Shown here: piece by piece, positions 7,097 through 19,753 of the stretch
Layout of the letters: each line of letters opens with the position of its first letter
Position numbering within the stretch: position 1 is the stretch's first letter
From: Calothrix brevissima NIES-22
GTDB taxonomy: Bacteria > Cyanobacteriota > Cyanobacteriia > Cyanobacteriales > Nostocaceae
Assembly: GCF_002367995.1 (NCBI RefSeq)
Contig: NZ_AP018207.1
Coordinates: 992,001 to 1,056,000 of the forward strand
Reading direction: 5' to 3'
DNA: 64,000 nt
Made by a program: the position numbers and the translations under genes
Notes under the pieces: model-generated
Seen by the model: the letters and a program-made list of their open reading frames with translations, nothing else
What the model was told of the DNA's origin: nothing
Database searches by the model: none

Positions 7097-7697
7097 TGGA
7101 CTTTGCGACTCTTGAAGATATAAGCAAGCAAATCTAGTATAAAACATTCAAGATTGGCATCTTACCGCCACAGGTAAGACTTACCCCAGTAGCCGATTAA
7201 CGTAAATCTCATAGCCAAAGTTTTAGTCTGCAAATCCTCACAAAATCAGACAATAAAAGTTGCCAGAGCCGAAAAGTTGTGTAAAACTGTGAATGGGCTT
7301 AAGAGCTTTATTAAGTAATGGAACTTCCGTTACAGGCAAACGTCTTATGAGGTTGAAAGTATATTCTTCCTTAAAGACAAGCTACAAACGGTTTAGTTCA
7401 AGGGGCAAAATTATAAAGAAATAATTAAAATTTTGCAGCATATATTAGTGGAATATCTATTGCATCAGCCTTCTAGCAAATATAAGGTTAAAAATTTAGT
7501 CAATAACTGACATCAAGACCTAGCAAAAACAATGGTAAAATAGATTCACTTAACAGTTAACGCCAGGTAAGCGATCGCGAAACTGAAAAAATCAGTATTT
7601 AGTTGGGCAGTGGCAAGAAGATAACAACACAATTGTTGTGTTAAGATATTGCCCTCACTACCTAAATAATCGGCAGCTAACCGCCAACTATCTCCTC
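7097..7697. other. Intergenic region upstream of the NsiR1 array
   Basis: About 600 bp without a supported gene. It contains a short palindrome GGTAAGACTTACC near 7172-7184, and a hairpin made of AACACAA and TTGTGTT around a 3-nt loop near 7627-7645. It should hold the promoter of the thioredoxin-like gene and possibly a distal hetF promoter. I cannot locate either with confidence. Confidence 0.5.
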
Positions 7698-7756
7698 AAA
7701 AAATCCCCAGTAGGTATAAGCCTACTAGGGGAGTTAGTTATCAGGGTGCATCTACC
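7698..7756 (-). ncRNA. nsiR1: NsiR1 copy 1 (distal to hetF)
   Basis: Predicted RNA of about 59 nt from 7756 down to the T-tract at 7698-7703. The DIF1 box is at 7787-7792. The terminator stem uses CCTACTAGGGG against CCCCAGTAGG, with an unusual TATAAG loop. This is the unit farthest from hetF. Confidence 0.82.
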
Positions 7757-7830
7757 ACTTCACTGTTCTTAGGTTCAAGGCCATCCTCCGGATAAATTTT
7801 GAGCGAGGATATTCCTCTGGTTTCAAAAAT

Positions 7831-7888
7831 AAAAAACCCTAGTAAGTATAAACCTACTAGGGGAGTTAGTTATCAGGGTGCATCTACC
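7831..7888 (-). ncRNA. nsiR1: NsiR1 copy 2
   Basis: The predicted RNA runs from 7888 to the T-tract at 7831-7836, with the DIF1 box at 7919-7924. Its loop resembles that of copy 1, so copies 1 and 2 form a subgroup. Confidence 0.82.
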
Positions 7889-7962
7889 ATTTACTTGTTC
7901 TCGAATAAATCTAGGCAATCCGGATAAAATTGTCACAAATACAGTAACTAGAAAATGACCAG

Positions 7963-8021
7963 AAAAAACCCCCCAATGGTGGCAGCCAATGAGGGGAGTT
8001 AGTTATCAGGGTGCATCTACT
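7963..8021 (-). ncRNA. nsiR1: NsiR1 copy 3 (variant)
   Basis: DIF1 box at 8052-8057 (TCCGGA), predicted RNA from 8021 to 7963. The 5' end reads AGTAGATGC instead of GGTAGATGC. The stem is changed to CCCCTCATTGG paired with CCAATGGGG-like sequence, a compensatory change that keeps the hairpin. Confidence 0.78.
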
Positions 8022-8097
8022 AGTTTATGTATTCTTCACTGAGAGACTAAATCCGGACAAAATAGGCACATAAAATTAACCAGTGCAAAACCAAAAT

Positions 8098-8154
8098 AAA
8101 ACCCCTAATGAGTTTGAGCAAATTAGGGGAGTTAGTTATCAGGGTGCATCTACC
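8098..8154 (-). ncRNA. nsiR1: NsiR1 copy 4
   Basis: DIF1 box at 8185-8190, predicted RNA from 8154 to about 8098. The stem is CCCCTAA with TTAGGGG, again a paired change from the consensus CTAG. The T-tract is shorter than in other units. Confidence 0.78.
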
Positions 8155-8231
8155 TCTTCACTATTCTCAGTGCAGCTACTACAATCCGGATAAAAATCAG
8201 AAAGCAGGGTGTAATACCAGTGAATCATGAC

Positions 8232-8290
8232 AAAAACCCCCTAGTGAGTTTGAGTCAACTAGGGGAGTGGATTATCAGGGTGCATCTACC
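8232..8290 (-). ncRNA. nsiR1: NsiR1 copy 5
   Basis: DIF1 box at 8321-8326, predicted RNA from 8290 to 8232. Copies 5, 6 and 7 share GTGGATTATCAGGG in place of GTTAGTTATCAGGG on the plus strand and are almost identical, so they look like the most recent duplications. An inverted-repeat element sits in the spacer after this copy. Confidence 0.82.
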
Positions 8291-8374
8291 TCTTCACTAT
8301 TCTCAGTGCAGCTACTACAATCCGGAATAAAATCAGAACGCAGTGGCGTGGCAAGGCTAAAATGTTGCCAAAAA

Positions 8375-8472
8375 ATGTAGGTTGGGTTGACGTAAGGAAA
8401 CCCAACACCAGCATCTATATTGAGTTTCTGAAATTCATGTTGGGTTTCGCAAAGCCTCAACCCAACCTACAT
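8375..8472. repeat. MITE-like element inserted within the NsiR1 array
   Basis: ATGTAGGTTGGGTTGA (8375-8390) and its perfect 16-bp reverse complement (8457-8472) bound a 98-bp element. An inner 11-bp pair, GAAACCCAACA (8397-8407) and TGTTGGGTTTC (8438-8448), makes a second stem. It lies in the spacer between NsiR1 copies 5 and 6. Thirty bases of its right arm (8438-8467) recur exactly, inverted, at 32791-32820. Confidence 0.85.
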
Positions 8473-8521
8473 CTCATGCACTATTTTAGTTATGTCAGTC
8501 CAGTAGGGTGTAAATCATGAC

Positions 8522-8580
8522 AAAAATCCCCTAGTGAGTTTGAGTCAACTAGGGGAGTGGATTATCAGGGTGCATCTACC
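8522..8580 (-). ncRNA. nsiR1: NsiR1 copy 6
   Basis: DIF1 box at 8611-8616, predicted RNA from 8580 to 8522. It is nearly identical to copies 5 and 7 through the transcribed part. It lies 290 bp from copy 5 because of the inserted 98-bp element and flanking sequence. Confidence 0.82.
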
Positions 8581-8659
8581 TCTTAATTATTCCCAGTGCA
8601 GCTACTACAATCCGGATAAAATTTTTACCTAATCAGGTGTGAAAATAGCAAGTAATCAT

Positions 8660-8718
8660 AAAAATCCCCTAGTGAGTTTGAGTCAACTAGGGGAGTGGAT
8701 TATCAGGGTGCATCTACC
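8660..8718 (-). ncRNA. nsiR1: NsiR1 copy 7
   Basis: DIF1 box at 8749-8754, predicted RNA from 8718 to 8660. The transcribed region matches copy 6 and the spacer differs slightly (AACTACTAAAATCCGG). Confidence 0.82.
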
Positions 8719-8801
8719 TCTTAATTATTCCCAGTGCAACTACTAAAATCCGGATAAAATTTTTATCAAGGTGCGATCGAGGTGTGTTCTACGAAACAAT
8801 C

Positions 8802-8861
8802 AAAAAATCCCCTAATGGGTAGCAACCAGCTAGGGAATTTTACTCTGATGGTGCATCTACC
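8802..8861 (-). ncRNA. nsiR1: NsiR1 copy 8 (divergent body)
   Basis: DIF1 box at 8892-8897, predicted RNA from 8861 to 8802. The middle of the RNA departs from consensus: the plus strand reads GGAATTTTACTCTGATGG instead of GGAGTTAGTTATCAGGG, and one stem base is lost. The 5' GGTAGATGCACC end is kept. It may be a decaying copy or a sequence variant with other targets. Confidence 0.7.
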
Positions 8862-8938
8862 ATTATTATTTTTCTCAAAAAAATAAGTAGCTCCGGACAA
8901 AATTGCCACAATCATGATGATTATGTGGTTTCAACCAG

Positions 8939-8999
8939 AAAAAAATCCCCTAGAAGGTTTGAGCCAGCTAGGGGAGTTAGTTATCAGGGTGCATCTACC
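8939..8999 (-). ncRNA. nsiR1: NsiR1 copy 9
   Basis: DIF1 box at 9030-9035, predicted RNA of about 61 nt from 8999 to 8939 with a strong 7-base T-tract. It has the consensus body and an AACAAT -10-like element. Confidence 0.83.
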
Positions 9000-9074
9000 A
9001 TTTCATTGTTCTCAAAAAAAATAAGTAGCTCCGGATGAAATTGTCACAATCATCATGATTATGTTGTATCAACC

Positions 9075-9138
9075 AAAAAAAAATCCCCTAGAGGGTTTGA
9101 GCCGACTAGGGGGAGTTAGTTATCAGGGTGCATCTACC
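9075..9138 (-). ncRNA. nsiR1: NsiR1 copy 10 (altered promoter box)
   Basis: The body and terminator are consensus, with a long T-tract (9075-9083). The box expected 31 bp upstream (9169-9174) reads TCAGGA, the only unit where TCCGGA is broken. The RNA may therefore be poorly expressed or expressed differently. Confidence 0.72.
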
Positions 9139-9238
9139 ATTTCATTGTTCTCTAGGTAACTGGCATCATCAGGATAAATTTTTTATCTATTCAGCTAATC
9201 ACGAAAAAATTCACAACCAAACATCAAAATCTCGCTTA

Positions 9239-9295
9239 AGAGTCAACACTTCGACAAGCTCAGTGCGGCGCAGTCAACAGTCAACAGTCAACTCT
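9239..9295. repeat. Heptamer STRR and dispersed repeat inside NsiR1 spacer
   Basis: This spacer between NsiR1 copies 10 and 11 holds CTTCGACAAGCTCAGTGCGG, of a kind found dispersed in many genomes, next to three GTCAACA heptamers. The insertion accounts for most of the extra length between these copies. Confidence 0.65.
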
Positions 9296-9319
9296 ATTTT
9301 CAAGTTAGTTGACAAACAT

Positions 9320-9378
9320 AAAAAACCCCCAGAAGGCGTTAGCCAACTAGGGGAGTTAGTTATCAGGGTGCATCTACC
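9320..9378 (-). ncRNA. nsiR1: NsiR1 copy 11
   Basis: DIF1 box at 9409-9414, predicted RNA from 9378 to 9320. The 5' half is consensus. The stem is slightly weakened (CCCCCAGAAGG on the plus strand) but still pairs with CTAGGGG. Confidence 0.78.
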
Positions 9379-9555
9379 ATTTCATTGTTCCCAGATAAAC
9401 CACCAAGATCCGGATAAATTGACTAAAATGTTTATTTTAGTTAGATGTCCAAAAAAATAATGGATGCTAGCGAGAAAATATGACAGATGAGGAGTTCTAG
9501 ACTTAAACATTTGTTAAAAATACCTATATGAAATTTTGTTGCTATTCGTCAACAT

Positions 9556-9616
9556 AAAAAAATCCCCAAGTCAGCATCAGCCAACTAGGGGAGTCGAAGA
9601 TCAAGGTGCATCTACC
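9556..9616 (-). ncRNA. nsiR1: NsiR1 copy 12 (closest to hetF, most divergent)
   Basis: DIF1 box at 9647-9652, predicted RNA from 9616 to 9556. The body reads GTCGAAGATCAAGGTGC on the plus strand, against the consensus GTTAGTTATCAGGGTGC, and the stem has a mismatch. The 31-bp spacing and the TTGGTAGATGCACC start are intact. Its promoter is only 145 bp from the hetF start codon and points away from hetF. Confidence 0.72.
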
Positions 9617-9787
9617 AATAAAGTGTTCTATTGTGATGCCAGCTAATCCGGACAAAGTTATAAAGCCAAAAACGTAAAATCACGAAGATTGAGAAACATC
9701 TCAGTGGCAAGATGCATCTAAGGTATCAGAAAGAGCGAAAAATCGACTTGAAACTTTCGCGTTTCAAACCTGATTTAGGAGGCTAAT

Positions 9788-9797: not shown

Positions 9798-12299
9798 GTG
9801 ACCCAGGAATTTCAAATTTCCGTAACCCCAGTAGGGCAAAATGACTACTTGGTACGCACGGAACAAGTTGCGCCTGGGGTGCCATTGGCAGAAGAACTGG
9901 TGACTTGGCCTGTAGCTGATTGGTTAGCAGCTGCTGGACATCTAATGAATGACCCTTTGATGTCAGTTTTACAGGGGGATGCGTTTGCAAGAAACTCTGT
10001 TAACCTGGTGGCTTTGGGTCAACAACTGTATAATGCACTGTTTCAAGGCACTCTCAGGGATAGTTGGATTACGGCACAGGGTATAGCCCAAAACCAGCAA
10101 CAGGTATTGCGTTTACGTTTAGGGCTAAAAGACACGAGGTTAGCACGTCTACCTTGGGAAGTAATGCACGCAGGGGATCGGCCTCTAGCTACCGGGCCTT
10201 ACGTTACTTTTTCTCGCTATCAAACTGGAATTTTGCCAGCTTCTCGCCTGCAATCGCACAACATACCACAACCACTAGAAGCCTCTGGGATCAAAGTTTT
10301 GATGGTAATTGCTTCGCCTACGGATCAGACTCGTCTGGAGTTGCTGAAACATGAAGCCATCAAACTACAAATGGAACTGAATCGCCATGTCCCGCGAGTT
10401 GGGGAAAGTGGCAATTATATTCCTGATATAGAACTGACGGTACTAGATCAACCAGGGCGGGAAGAATTAACTCAGGCTCTGGAACAAGGAAGATATCATG
10501 TACTGCACTACTCTGGCCATAGTAATTTAGGTGCCAATGGTGGTGAAATTTATTTAGTTAGTAACAGAACTGGTTTAACAGAAACTTTAACTGGGGACGA
10601 TTTGGCAGGCTTGCTTGTCAATAATAATATTCAAATGGCTGTGTTTAACTCCTGTTTAGGAGCATACAGTGCTAACGCCGATCGCACTGAAGAAACAGGA
10701 GAACGTAACCTTACAGAAAGTTTGGTGAAACGCGGGCTGAGAAGTGTATTAGCTATGTCAGAGCGCATTCCTGATGAAGTAGCGCTGACTTTGACTCAAT
10801 TGTTTTACCGCAATTTGAATCAGGGATACTCTGTGGATTTGTGTCTGAGTCGAGTGCGTCAGGGATTAATTTCTGCCTATGGTTCTCACCAGATGTACTG
10901 GGCTTTACCAATTCTCTATCAACAACCGGAATTTGACGGTTTTCTGAGTCCAGAAATTCCCGATAGTGGGGAAGCAAATGAGTATAATCCGCCTTTAAGA
11001 CCCAATGCAACGGCGATGTACTCTGCTGTAGATGAACCTGATATGCCTTTACCAATAGAGGAGATGATCCCTAATAGTTTGGCACGGGAATCTTCAGGGC
11101 TGGATTGGCTGGGAGAAGAGACTTGGGGCGATTTGGTTGATGAAATTGAATATGACGATCCATCCTATGCAGAAGATTCGGCTTTGGTTTCCGATTTGTT
11201 TCGCCAACTAGATCGTCAAAATGTCTTATCTGACGATTCGCCAATGACTGCGGAACTGGTACAACATTTAAATGATAGCGGTGCGCGATCGCGATCTGTT
11301 CCCCAAGATGTCAATGAATCAGACCAAGAAATTAGTTTTTGGGAAGAAGAGCCAATCGCATCCGATGAAACCACTGCAAATACTTCAAATTATGCGAGAA
11401 ATTGGCAGAATGCTGCTGTTGGAACTTCAACCCCAAATTCCCGCAAAAACCCCAAAAAACGCCAACTTTTGCCAATTTTCGGGATGGTGGGAGCAGGGGC
11501 GATCGCAATTGTTGCCGGTGTTTTTTGGTGGCAAAATCACCAACTATCCAAGTTACCTGATATTCCTCCCATTCCTACCCAGCCAATCACTGCCGAAAAT
11601 CATCCGCCTATCGATTTAAAAACTGCCCCTACGGGTATTGTTAGCGCTACTGCTACGGAAAAAATCAGCCAAGGCGATTTACAAAGCGGACTGGAGGCTG
11701 TGGAAGAATTACTTAACCGTGGGGTTATTCCAGCTGCACAAGCCGCTTTAAATCTTGTACCAAAACAACAAGTTAATAATCCATCTGTGAATTTTCTCAA
11801 AGGACGATTAGCTTGGCAATCAGTTCAACTTCAAGATCCAAAATACAGCGTTGATGATGCTCGCCGTTTTTGGGAAAGTGCTGTGAAAGCCGATCCCGAT
11901 TCTTTTTTATATAACAATGCTTTAGGGTTTGCTTACTACGCCGAAGACAATTTAAATCGAGCTAATGATTCTTGGTTTAAGGCTTTGAATTTAGCTTTGA
12001 AAAAACAAAATATTGCTAGTACTACATCAATAGCTATCAGCGCCGCCGCAACTACACCTAAAGATGCTTTAACTTCCTATGCTGGCTTGGCTTTAGGACT
12101 TTATAAATCTTCATATAAACAAACATCTACTAAACAATCTCAATATCTCAATGAGGCTATTAAACTCCGCCAAATGGTGATTAAGGACGATCCGGTAAAT
12201 TTCCAGGTAGATAAATTAAGTCATAATTGGTTGTGGACGCCAAAGGCAATTGACGATTGGCGATCGCTGCTGCAAGAAAAAGGTCAGCAGCAGCTATGA
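9798..12299 (+). CDS. hetF: HetF, CHAT-domain protease required for heterocyst differentiation
   Basis: 833 residues from a GTG start with a good AGGAG site. The CHAT (caspase HetF-associated with TPRs) domain spans about 60-380, with the catalytic dyad His241 in HYSGHSNLGANGG and Cys286 in VFNSCLGAY. An acidic, low-complexity linker follows (about 395-545). A single membrane helix sits near 556-577 (FGMVGAGAIAIVAGVFWW), and a C-terminal TPR-like helical region runs about 620-830. This order matches HetF of heterocystous cyanobacteria, a divisome-associated protease needed for heterocyst formation and reported to cleave PatU3. The NsiR1 array lies directly upstream, as described for hetF loci, which strengthens the identification. 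Regulation by NsiR1 through the leader is plausible. An AT-rich heptamer STRR follows the stop codon. Confidence 0.93.
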   Translation: MTQEFQISVTPVGQNDYLVRTEQVAPGVPLAEELVTWPVADWLAAAGHLMNDPLMSVLQGDAFARNSVNLVALGQQLYNALFQGTLRDSWITAQGIAQNQQQVLRLRLGLKDTRLARLPWEVMHAGDRPLATGPYVTFSRYQTGILPASRLQSHNIPQPLEASGIKVLMVIASPTDQTRLELLKHEAIKLQMELNRHVPRVGESGNYIPDIELTVLDQPGREELTQALEQGRYHVLHYSGHSNLGANGGEIYLVSNRTGLTETLTGDDLAGLLVNNNIQMAVFNSCLGAYSANADRTEETGERNLTESLVKRGLRSVLAMSERIPDEVALTLTQLFYRNLNQGYSVDLCLSRVRQGLISAYGSHQMYWALPILYQQPEFDGFLSPEIPDSGEANEYNPPLRPNATAMYSAVDEPDMPLPIEEMIPNSLARESSGLDWLGEETWGDLVDEIEYDDPSYAEDSALVSDLFRQLDRQNVLSDDSPMTAELVQHLNDSGARSRSVPQDVNESDQEISFWEEEPIASDETTANTSNYARNWQNAAVGTSTPNSRKNPKKRQLLPIFGMVGAGAIAIVAGVFWWQNHQLSKLPDIPPIPTQPITAENHPPIDLKTAPTGIVSATATEKISQGDLQSGLEAVEELLNRGVIPAAQAALNLVPKQQVNNPSVNFLKGRLAWQSVQLQDPKYSVDDARRFWESAVKADPDSFLYNNALGFAYYAEDNLNRANDSWFKALNLALKKQNIASTTSIAISAAATTPKDALTSYAGLALGLYKSSYKQTSTKQSQYLNEAIKLRQMVIKDDPVNFQVDKLSHNWLWTPKAIDDWRSLLQEKGQQQL

Positions 12300-17788: not shown

Positions 17789-19753
<1,965 letters not shown>

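Follow-up and report, generated by a model that had tools for sequence, protein, structure and literature searches.

In Nostoc sp. PCC 7120, the NsiR1 small RNAs (sRNAs) are encoded by a 12-copy array with individual DIF1 promoters, divergent from hetF (PMC9045159, PMC8406250), and 12 NsiR1 repeats were reported for Nodularia (PMC3610870). The NsiR1 promoter combines DIF1 at −35 with an extended −10 (PMC6133370). NsiR1.1 and NsiR1.4 of Nostoc 7120 have different targets, and hetF and alr3234 are targets of the NsiR1 RNAs themselves (PMC9045159). The DIF1 promoters of hetR and patS were found to require HetZ, with HetR reported as non-essential there; NsiR1 is not mentioned in that source (PMC7377430). 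The sequence analysed here is a 64,000-nucleotide (nt) stretch of Calothrix brevissima NIES-22 (GCF_002367995.1, NZ_AP018207.1, positions 992,001–1,056,000, forward strand; hereafter the window), which carries an orthologue of the known nsiR1 system; the array itself is not new. Judged from its sequence, the locus very likely comprises 12 tandem sRNA genes that are divergent from hetF and have a DIF1 promoter and a terminator apiece; the genome holds a second, single-copy member of the wider family between lgt and cobM (hereafter the solo RNA). On balance, the comparison with relatives leans towards NsiR1 being no heterocyst invention. It would instead be a long-standing family of sRNAs in filamentous cyanobacteria, comprising at least two classes: one linked to hetF and usually tandem, and one at lgt–cobM, usually single and with a 20-nt 5′ region that hardly changes. 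The lgt–cobM class would have a conserved, heterocyst-independent regulatory job and would have persisted in a lineage without detectable hetR.

The window was searched with Rfam models, and 12 matches to RF02399 above the gathering score of 39 were obtained, all on the minus strand between 7696 and 9617. Scores ranged from 43.6 to 72.7 bits (E values 1.7e-12 to 2.8e-5; 12/12 units above the cut-off), and these units were the only Rfam matches in the window. The divergent hetF (9798–12299, plus strand) was identified with the HetF equivalog model NF045509 (1497 bits versus a cut-off of 1200). Score, hetF-divergent tandem layout and a DIF1 box near −35 thus all place the array in NsiR1. An original prediction, made from the letters alone, had proposed 12 minus-strand NsiR1 units at 7698–9652, upstream of hetF, and both number and identity were borne out. 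The predicted first bases (9616, 9378, 9138, 8999, 8861, 8718, 8580, 8290, 8154, 8021, 7888 and 7756) reproduced its list of 12 RNA starts; the RNA 5′ end by Rfam lies one base earlier, and the start sites are uncertain by this one base.

The distance from the end of the box to the predicted first base was 30 nt in 12/12 units, the last box base lying at −31, as had been claimed; the box itself was exactly TCCGGA in 11/12 units and carried one mismatch (TCCTGA) in unit 9138. In the whole window, 15 exact TCCGGA were observed versus 8.8 expected from base composition, and 11 of the 15 lay inside the array. According to predicted folds, the 5′ region of the array RNAs is largely unpaired and is followed by a strong hairpin. 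A T run of four to nine begins at +53 to +56 in each unit. The prediction of a uniform RNA 5′ end and CCCCTAG hairpin held for the terminator-like hairpin in each unit and failed for uniformity: the unit at 8021 starts AGTAGATGC, and the hairpin motif reads CCCCTCA at 8021, CCCCTAA at 8154 and TCCCTAG at 8861.

Several 5′ versions were found among the copies. The copy nearest hetF (9556–9617; 59.5 bits; TCCGGA 9647–9652) has an nsiR1.1-like 5′ region, CCTTGATCTTCGACTCC, which is unique within the array; a similar version, CCTTGATCTT, closest to hetF recurs in other loci, including other genera. The first 27 nt are identical in six copies, which carry the commonest 5′ region: 9318–9379 (72.7 bits; TCCGGA 9409–9414), 9077–9139 (66.4 bits; TCCTGA 9169–9174), 8939–9000 (70.3 bits; TCCGGA 9030–9035), 8094–8155 (61.6 bits; TCCGGA 8185–8190), 7828–7889 (63.8 bits; TCCGGA 7919–7924) and, farthest from hetF, 7696–7757 (68.8 bits; TCCGGA 7787–7792). 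Copy 8021 (7961–8022; 63.5 bits; TCCGGA 8052–8057) matches these six throughout the 27 nt except at its first base. Copy 8861 (8801–8862; 43.6 bits; TCCGGA 8892–8897) has a 5′ region, CCATCAGAGTAAAATTC, that diverges most from the others and is again unique within the array. A further version, GATAATCCAC, is common to the copies at 8658–8719 (59 bits; TCCGGA 8749–8754), 8520–8581 (57.8 bits; TCCGGA 8611–8616) and 8230–8291 (56.4 bits; TCCGGA 8321–8326), which show 100% identity over 53 nt. In two congeneric loci it was found once each (1/12 and 1/11 copies in the stretches compared), the two congeners possibly being close to each other; since it is single there and triple here, this version was probably tripled in the lineage of Calothrix brevissima NIES-22, in agreement with the earlier reading of these near-identical copies as a recent expansion. 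Repeats are inserted in the two long spacers of the array, at ∼8375–8475 and ∼9240–9285, namely a palindromic GTAGGTTGGGTT...AACCCAACCTAC element, with other copies in the window and in a 390-kb genome sample, and a TTGACTG heptamer run. The hetR gene (window 17789–18688, minus strand, 299 aa; PF03574 match at G000:C1:1010083–1010529) lies ∼5.5 kb beyond the end of hetF.

Neither the array nor its box spacing is special to this genome. NsiR1 matches above the cut-off were present in 217/217 genomes of its taxonomic family. Thirty array loci from family genomes gave 170 distinct units; with one mismatch allowed, the box lay at 30 nt in 149 of them, at 29 nt in 15 and at 31 nt in one, and five had none; as a control, 6000 random positions of the same 30 loci had an exact box at 30 nt 13 times. 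In two loci (L035 1105, minus; L041 2625, plus), the outermost array copy on the side away from hetF keeps its head intact but has no DIF1 box; it begins 55 nt from the copy before it, as though it had no promoter.

Outside the array, two more RF02399 matches (50.5 and 36.8 bits) were detected in the genome of Calothrix brevissima NIES-22. The stronger is the solo RNA (G000:C1:4268899–4268949, minus strand; cut-off 39), which is single and shorter than the array copies, lies between lgt and cobM, points towards lgt and is divergent from cobM. A TCCGGA box precedes GGTAGATGCACCCTGGTTAA by 29 nt, and the length to the hairpin end is 42 nt. The head GGTAGATGCACCCTG and the DIF1 box are common to the solo RNA and the array copies; the 20-nt 5′ region of the solo RNA is its own. 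By score it belongs to RF02399 and it lacks the tandem arrangement at hetF; because it is a single copy between lgt and cobM, it was filed as a separate class of the NsiR1 family. The weaker match (G000:C1:1975965–1976022, L016 2522, minus strand), between ylqF and an ATP-grasp gene, scored below the cut-off; it has the same 5′ head, another hairpin and a TCCCGA box at 29 nt, and L064, L065 and L066 contain comparable scattered units that combine a DIF1-type box with a different body. A pattern search for box and head in the same genome gave 15 matches, with 0 in the control; 14 were the array units and these two loci, and the remaining one, at C1:7855377, was judged a chance match, its head being without the GG start and the site without an Rfam match.

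The solo RNA is conserved throughout the family. Within the genus, a separate 51–52-nt match of the solo type was found in 8/8 genomes. The lgt–cobM setting was seen in 17/17 first relatives (L047–L063; L056 ends before lgt) and in 44/44 further loci (L069–L112; L095 ends before lgt), judged as far as the contigs reach and with genomes G101 and G016 counted in both sets. A covariance model of promoter plus RNA, termed R1, matched 217/217 family genomes, and in 213/217 the best E value was ≤2.1e-15, the solo score class. When 18 genomes were searched again with R1, 14 matches scored ≥78.8 bits and all others ≤41.1. Named cobM loci were taken from the 80 best of 317 relatives found, Nostoc 7120 not being among them. 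Each of these 80 loci contained one solo RNA, its 20-nt 5′ region was identical throughout (80/80), and the gap from TCCGGA was 29 nt in 78 loci and 30 nt in the other two. The same 20-mer was present in 61/62 stretches of the unnamed set, the last one differing in its last base. Mean pairwise identity (ungapped, 79 distinct sequences) was 1.00 at +1 to +20, 0.45 at −110 to −60 and 0.29 at +61 to +110.

For the distribution beyond the family, 388 genomes drawn from the order were searched with R1 at a threshold of 1e-5. R1 matched 228/388, namely 71 of the window's family and 157/317 others; the number 157 stands for NsiR1-type RNAs of either class, because R1 at weak scores also catches the hetF class. 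Nineteen loci were inspected, drawn from 18 genomes in eight other families; they were taken among the best scores and are biased accordingly to the cobM class. Seventeen of the 19 adjoined cobM and/or lgt, the exceptions being L214 and L232, where contigs end nearby. The head was CTGG in 18 and CTGAT in L226, which also lies between lgt and cobM. Multiple copies occurred in L217 (four), L219 (five) and L220 (three by lgt and two ∼2.7 kb off), and mean identity over +1 to +20 was 0.94 (28 distinct). In family f18, seven genomes with a completeness of 65–100% have the RNA between lgt and cobM and no HetR match at 1e-20; the box is TGCGGA in 6/7, and the seventh (L241) combines TCCGGA with a changed head. 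Divergent hetF-linked copies were likewise present outside the family (L242, L245 and L250). RF02399 itself scored above the cut-off in 20/20 other-family genomes, which had been chosen because R1 had matched them; NsiR1 was thus found outside the heterocyst-formers, these other families being taken to lack heterocysts. Some other-family genomes are rich in NsiR1-like matches: G279 has 22, which are scattered, whereas the 15 of G418 and the 13 of G249 are partly in tandem (at G418:C146 and G249:C1:1239911–1241196).

The two classes were compared by using distinct units with a box at 28–31 nt. Positions +13 to +17 read CTGGT in 118/120 cobM/lgt-linked units, and CTGAT (152) or TTGAT (21) in 173 of the 177 hetF-linked units; 76 units without a linkage assignment in the stretches compared comprised 58 with CTGAT and five with CTGGT. 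The box gap was 29 nt in 90/120 cobM/lgt-linked units and 30 nt in 163/177 hetF-linked units. The 317 genomes outside the family were divided into 145 with HetR and R1, 12 with R1 only, 20 with HetR only and 140 with neither (Fisher p 6e-52, which is not a real probability because the genomes are related). The association of HetR with the RNA is strong outside the family, and the 12 R1-only genomes speak against a strict link. Of the 20 HetR-only genomes, 17 gave R1 matches at lower significance (E up to 0.01), and 15 of these 17 have a GATGCA head after the box (at most one mismatch; not L253 and L260). From the conservation of the solo RNA, the cobM/lgt loci in other families and the genomes without HetR, it follows that NsiR1-type RNAs form at least two old classes, which probably predate heterocysts; the solo RNA, too, is probably older than heterocysts.

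How the array units would work can be sketched from Nostoc 7120 (PMC9045159). The HetR/HetZ pathway would switch them on in cells starting heterocyst development. The original prediction had called the promoters HetR-dependent; a DIF1-type box is present, and the dependence of NsiR1 promoters on HetR is probably indirect, via HetZ (PMC7377430). The hetF-proximal copy, antisense to the hetF 5′ untranslated region, would lower HetF translation, and the other versions may pair through their unpaired 5′ region with targets in trans, for instance a HetP-family brake on commitment. Since corresponding versions in Nostoc 7120 have different targets, the variety of versions in the array is, by this analogy, probably functional. 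The solo RNA would act in trans through its own 5′ region and is most likely a trans-acting RNA as well.

It is doubtful that the copies are interchangeable and the array serves only to raise RNA output. The 27-nt 5′ region shared by 6/12 copies, the three bodies of 100% identity and the seven identical central copies of Nostoc 7120 (PMC9045159) would suit such a role; it is opposed by the four or more 5′ versions among the window copies, by the recurrence of the hetF-proximal version in other genera and by the differing targets of NsiR1.1 and NsiR1.4 in Nostoc 7120 (PMC9045159). Because the copies carry several different 5′ regions, the array is not simple dosage, and of the earlier proposal of self-contained units that multiply sRNA dosage the first half is supported by the presence of a box and a terminator-like hairpin in every unit, and dosage is only part of the picture. 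A very improbable reading gives the main part to the boxes and not to the RNAs: the array would be a decoy that titrates the activator of DIF1 promoters, or would interfere with hetF transcription. The strictness of the box spacing would fit, as would the drift of the sequence between box and start in the solo promoters; head and hairpin are, however, conserved as strongly as the box, and hetF and alr3234 of Nostoc 7120 are targets of the RNAs themselves (PMC9045159). Interference is opposed by the small effect of nsiR1.1 removal on hetF promoter–gfp (PMC8406250).

For the solo RNA, an action in cis only, antisense to the cobM leader as a switch of a B12 gene, has to be weighed against action in trans. 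The divergence from cobM, with a median of 94 nt from the start to the cobM match (range 89–227, n=64), is the same geometry as that of nsiR1.1 and hetF and speaks for a cis-acting switch. Conservation is nevertheless highest in the unpaired 5′ 20 nt and at background beyond the terminator, and the head is common to copies without cobM in the stretch; a purely cis-acting solo RNA is hence considered unlikely.

Several points weigh against the favoured reading of an orthologous array and an old, trans-acting solo class. Both sets of RNAs are known here from sequence alone. A solo-class match was lacking in 4/217 family genomes: G080 (54% complete), G108 (72%), G191 (84%) and G185, which is rated 100% in ∼320 contigs. 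The solo hairpin gave no double-sided covariation, 263/500 shuffles reaching the observed score, and covariation was dropped as structural evidence, no pair having changed on both sides. Duplex energies computed for whole RNAs with hetF, cobM and the HetP genes yielded long, interrupted pairings. Instead, the 5′ regions were ranked for pairing with 258 translation starts taken from this genome. The genome has two HetP-family genes, L067 and L068. With L068, the commonest version reached rank 10 of 258, the solo RNA rank 27 and the GATAATCCAC version rank 50; with L067, no version ranked better than 146. The highest placing overall, 3/258, came from copy 9616 with the cobM start; it is unexplained and one of 28 comparisons. 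The predicted pairing with HetP-family genes is a hint at most.

No description of the lgt–cobM class was found in the searchable literature, the founding NsiR1 papers lying outside its reach, so an earlier description is possible. No paper there combined sRNA, cobM, cyanobacteria and heterocyst in its accessible text, and the single paper there that names RF02399 deals with Shewanella. A 51-nt sRNA of Nostoc 7120, 4547237r, has homologues in 12/27 heterocystous genomes and none outside, according to PMC4734099; with this restricted spread, versus the near-universal solo RNA, identity of the two is unlikely. The pipeline of the same study had a lower limit of 45 nt without poly-U. The cobM class may have been passed over until now because it measures only ∼42 nt to the hairpin end. 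The nitrogen stress-induced RNA NsiR2 of Anabaena, named without sequence or locus in the accessible part of PMC6316151, could in principle be the lgt–cobM RNA.

The solo class matters because NsiR1 has been studied as a heterocyst-specific RNA. If close relatives do occupy a fixed locus across filamentous cyanobacteria, genomes without a detected hetR included, an older regulator was probably taken up later for the heterocyst role. If Nostoc 7120 carries the solo RNA, the RNAs that overexpress or deplete NsiR1 have its 15-nt head, and some NsiR1 phenotypes could involve it because this head is shared. The wide spread seen here agrees with RNA162 of Limnospira indica PCC 8005, a 57-nt NsiR1-like RNA in a species without heterocysts, which may belong to the hetF or the cobM class (PMC8400943). 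The window array itself represents known biology in one more genome. It resembles the Nostoc 7120 NsiR1 array (RF02399) in its 12 tandem copies of ∼60 nt, each with a DIF1 promoter, in its orientation opposite to hetF and in the divergent nsiR1.1-type copy closest to hetF (PMC9045159, PMC8406250). Unlike that array, in which seven central copies are identical (PMC9045159), it contains more versions, one of them tripled.

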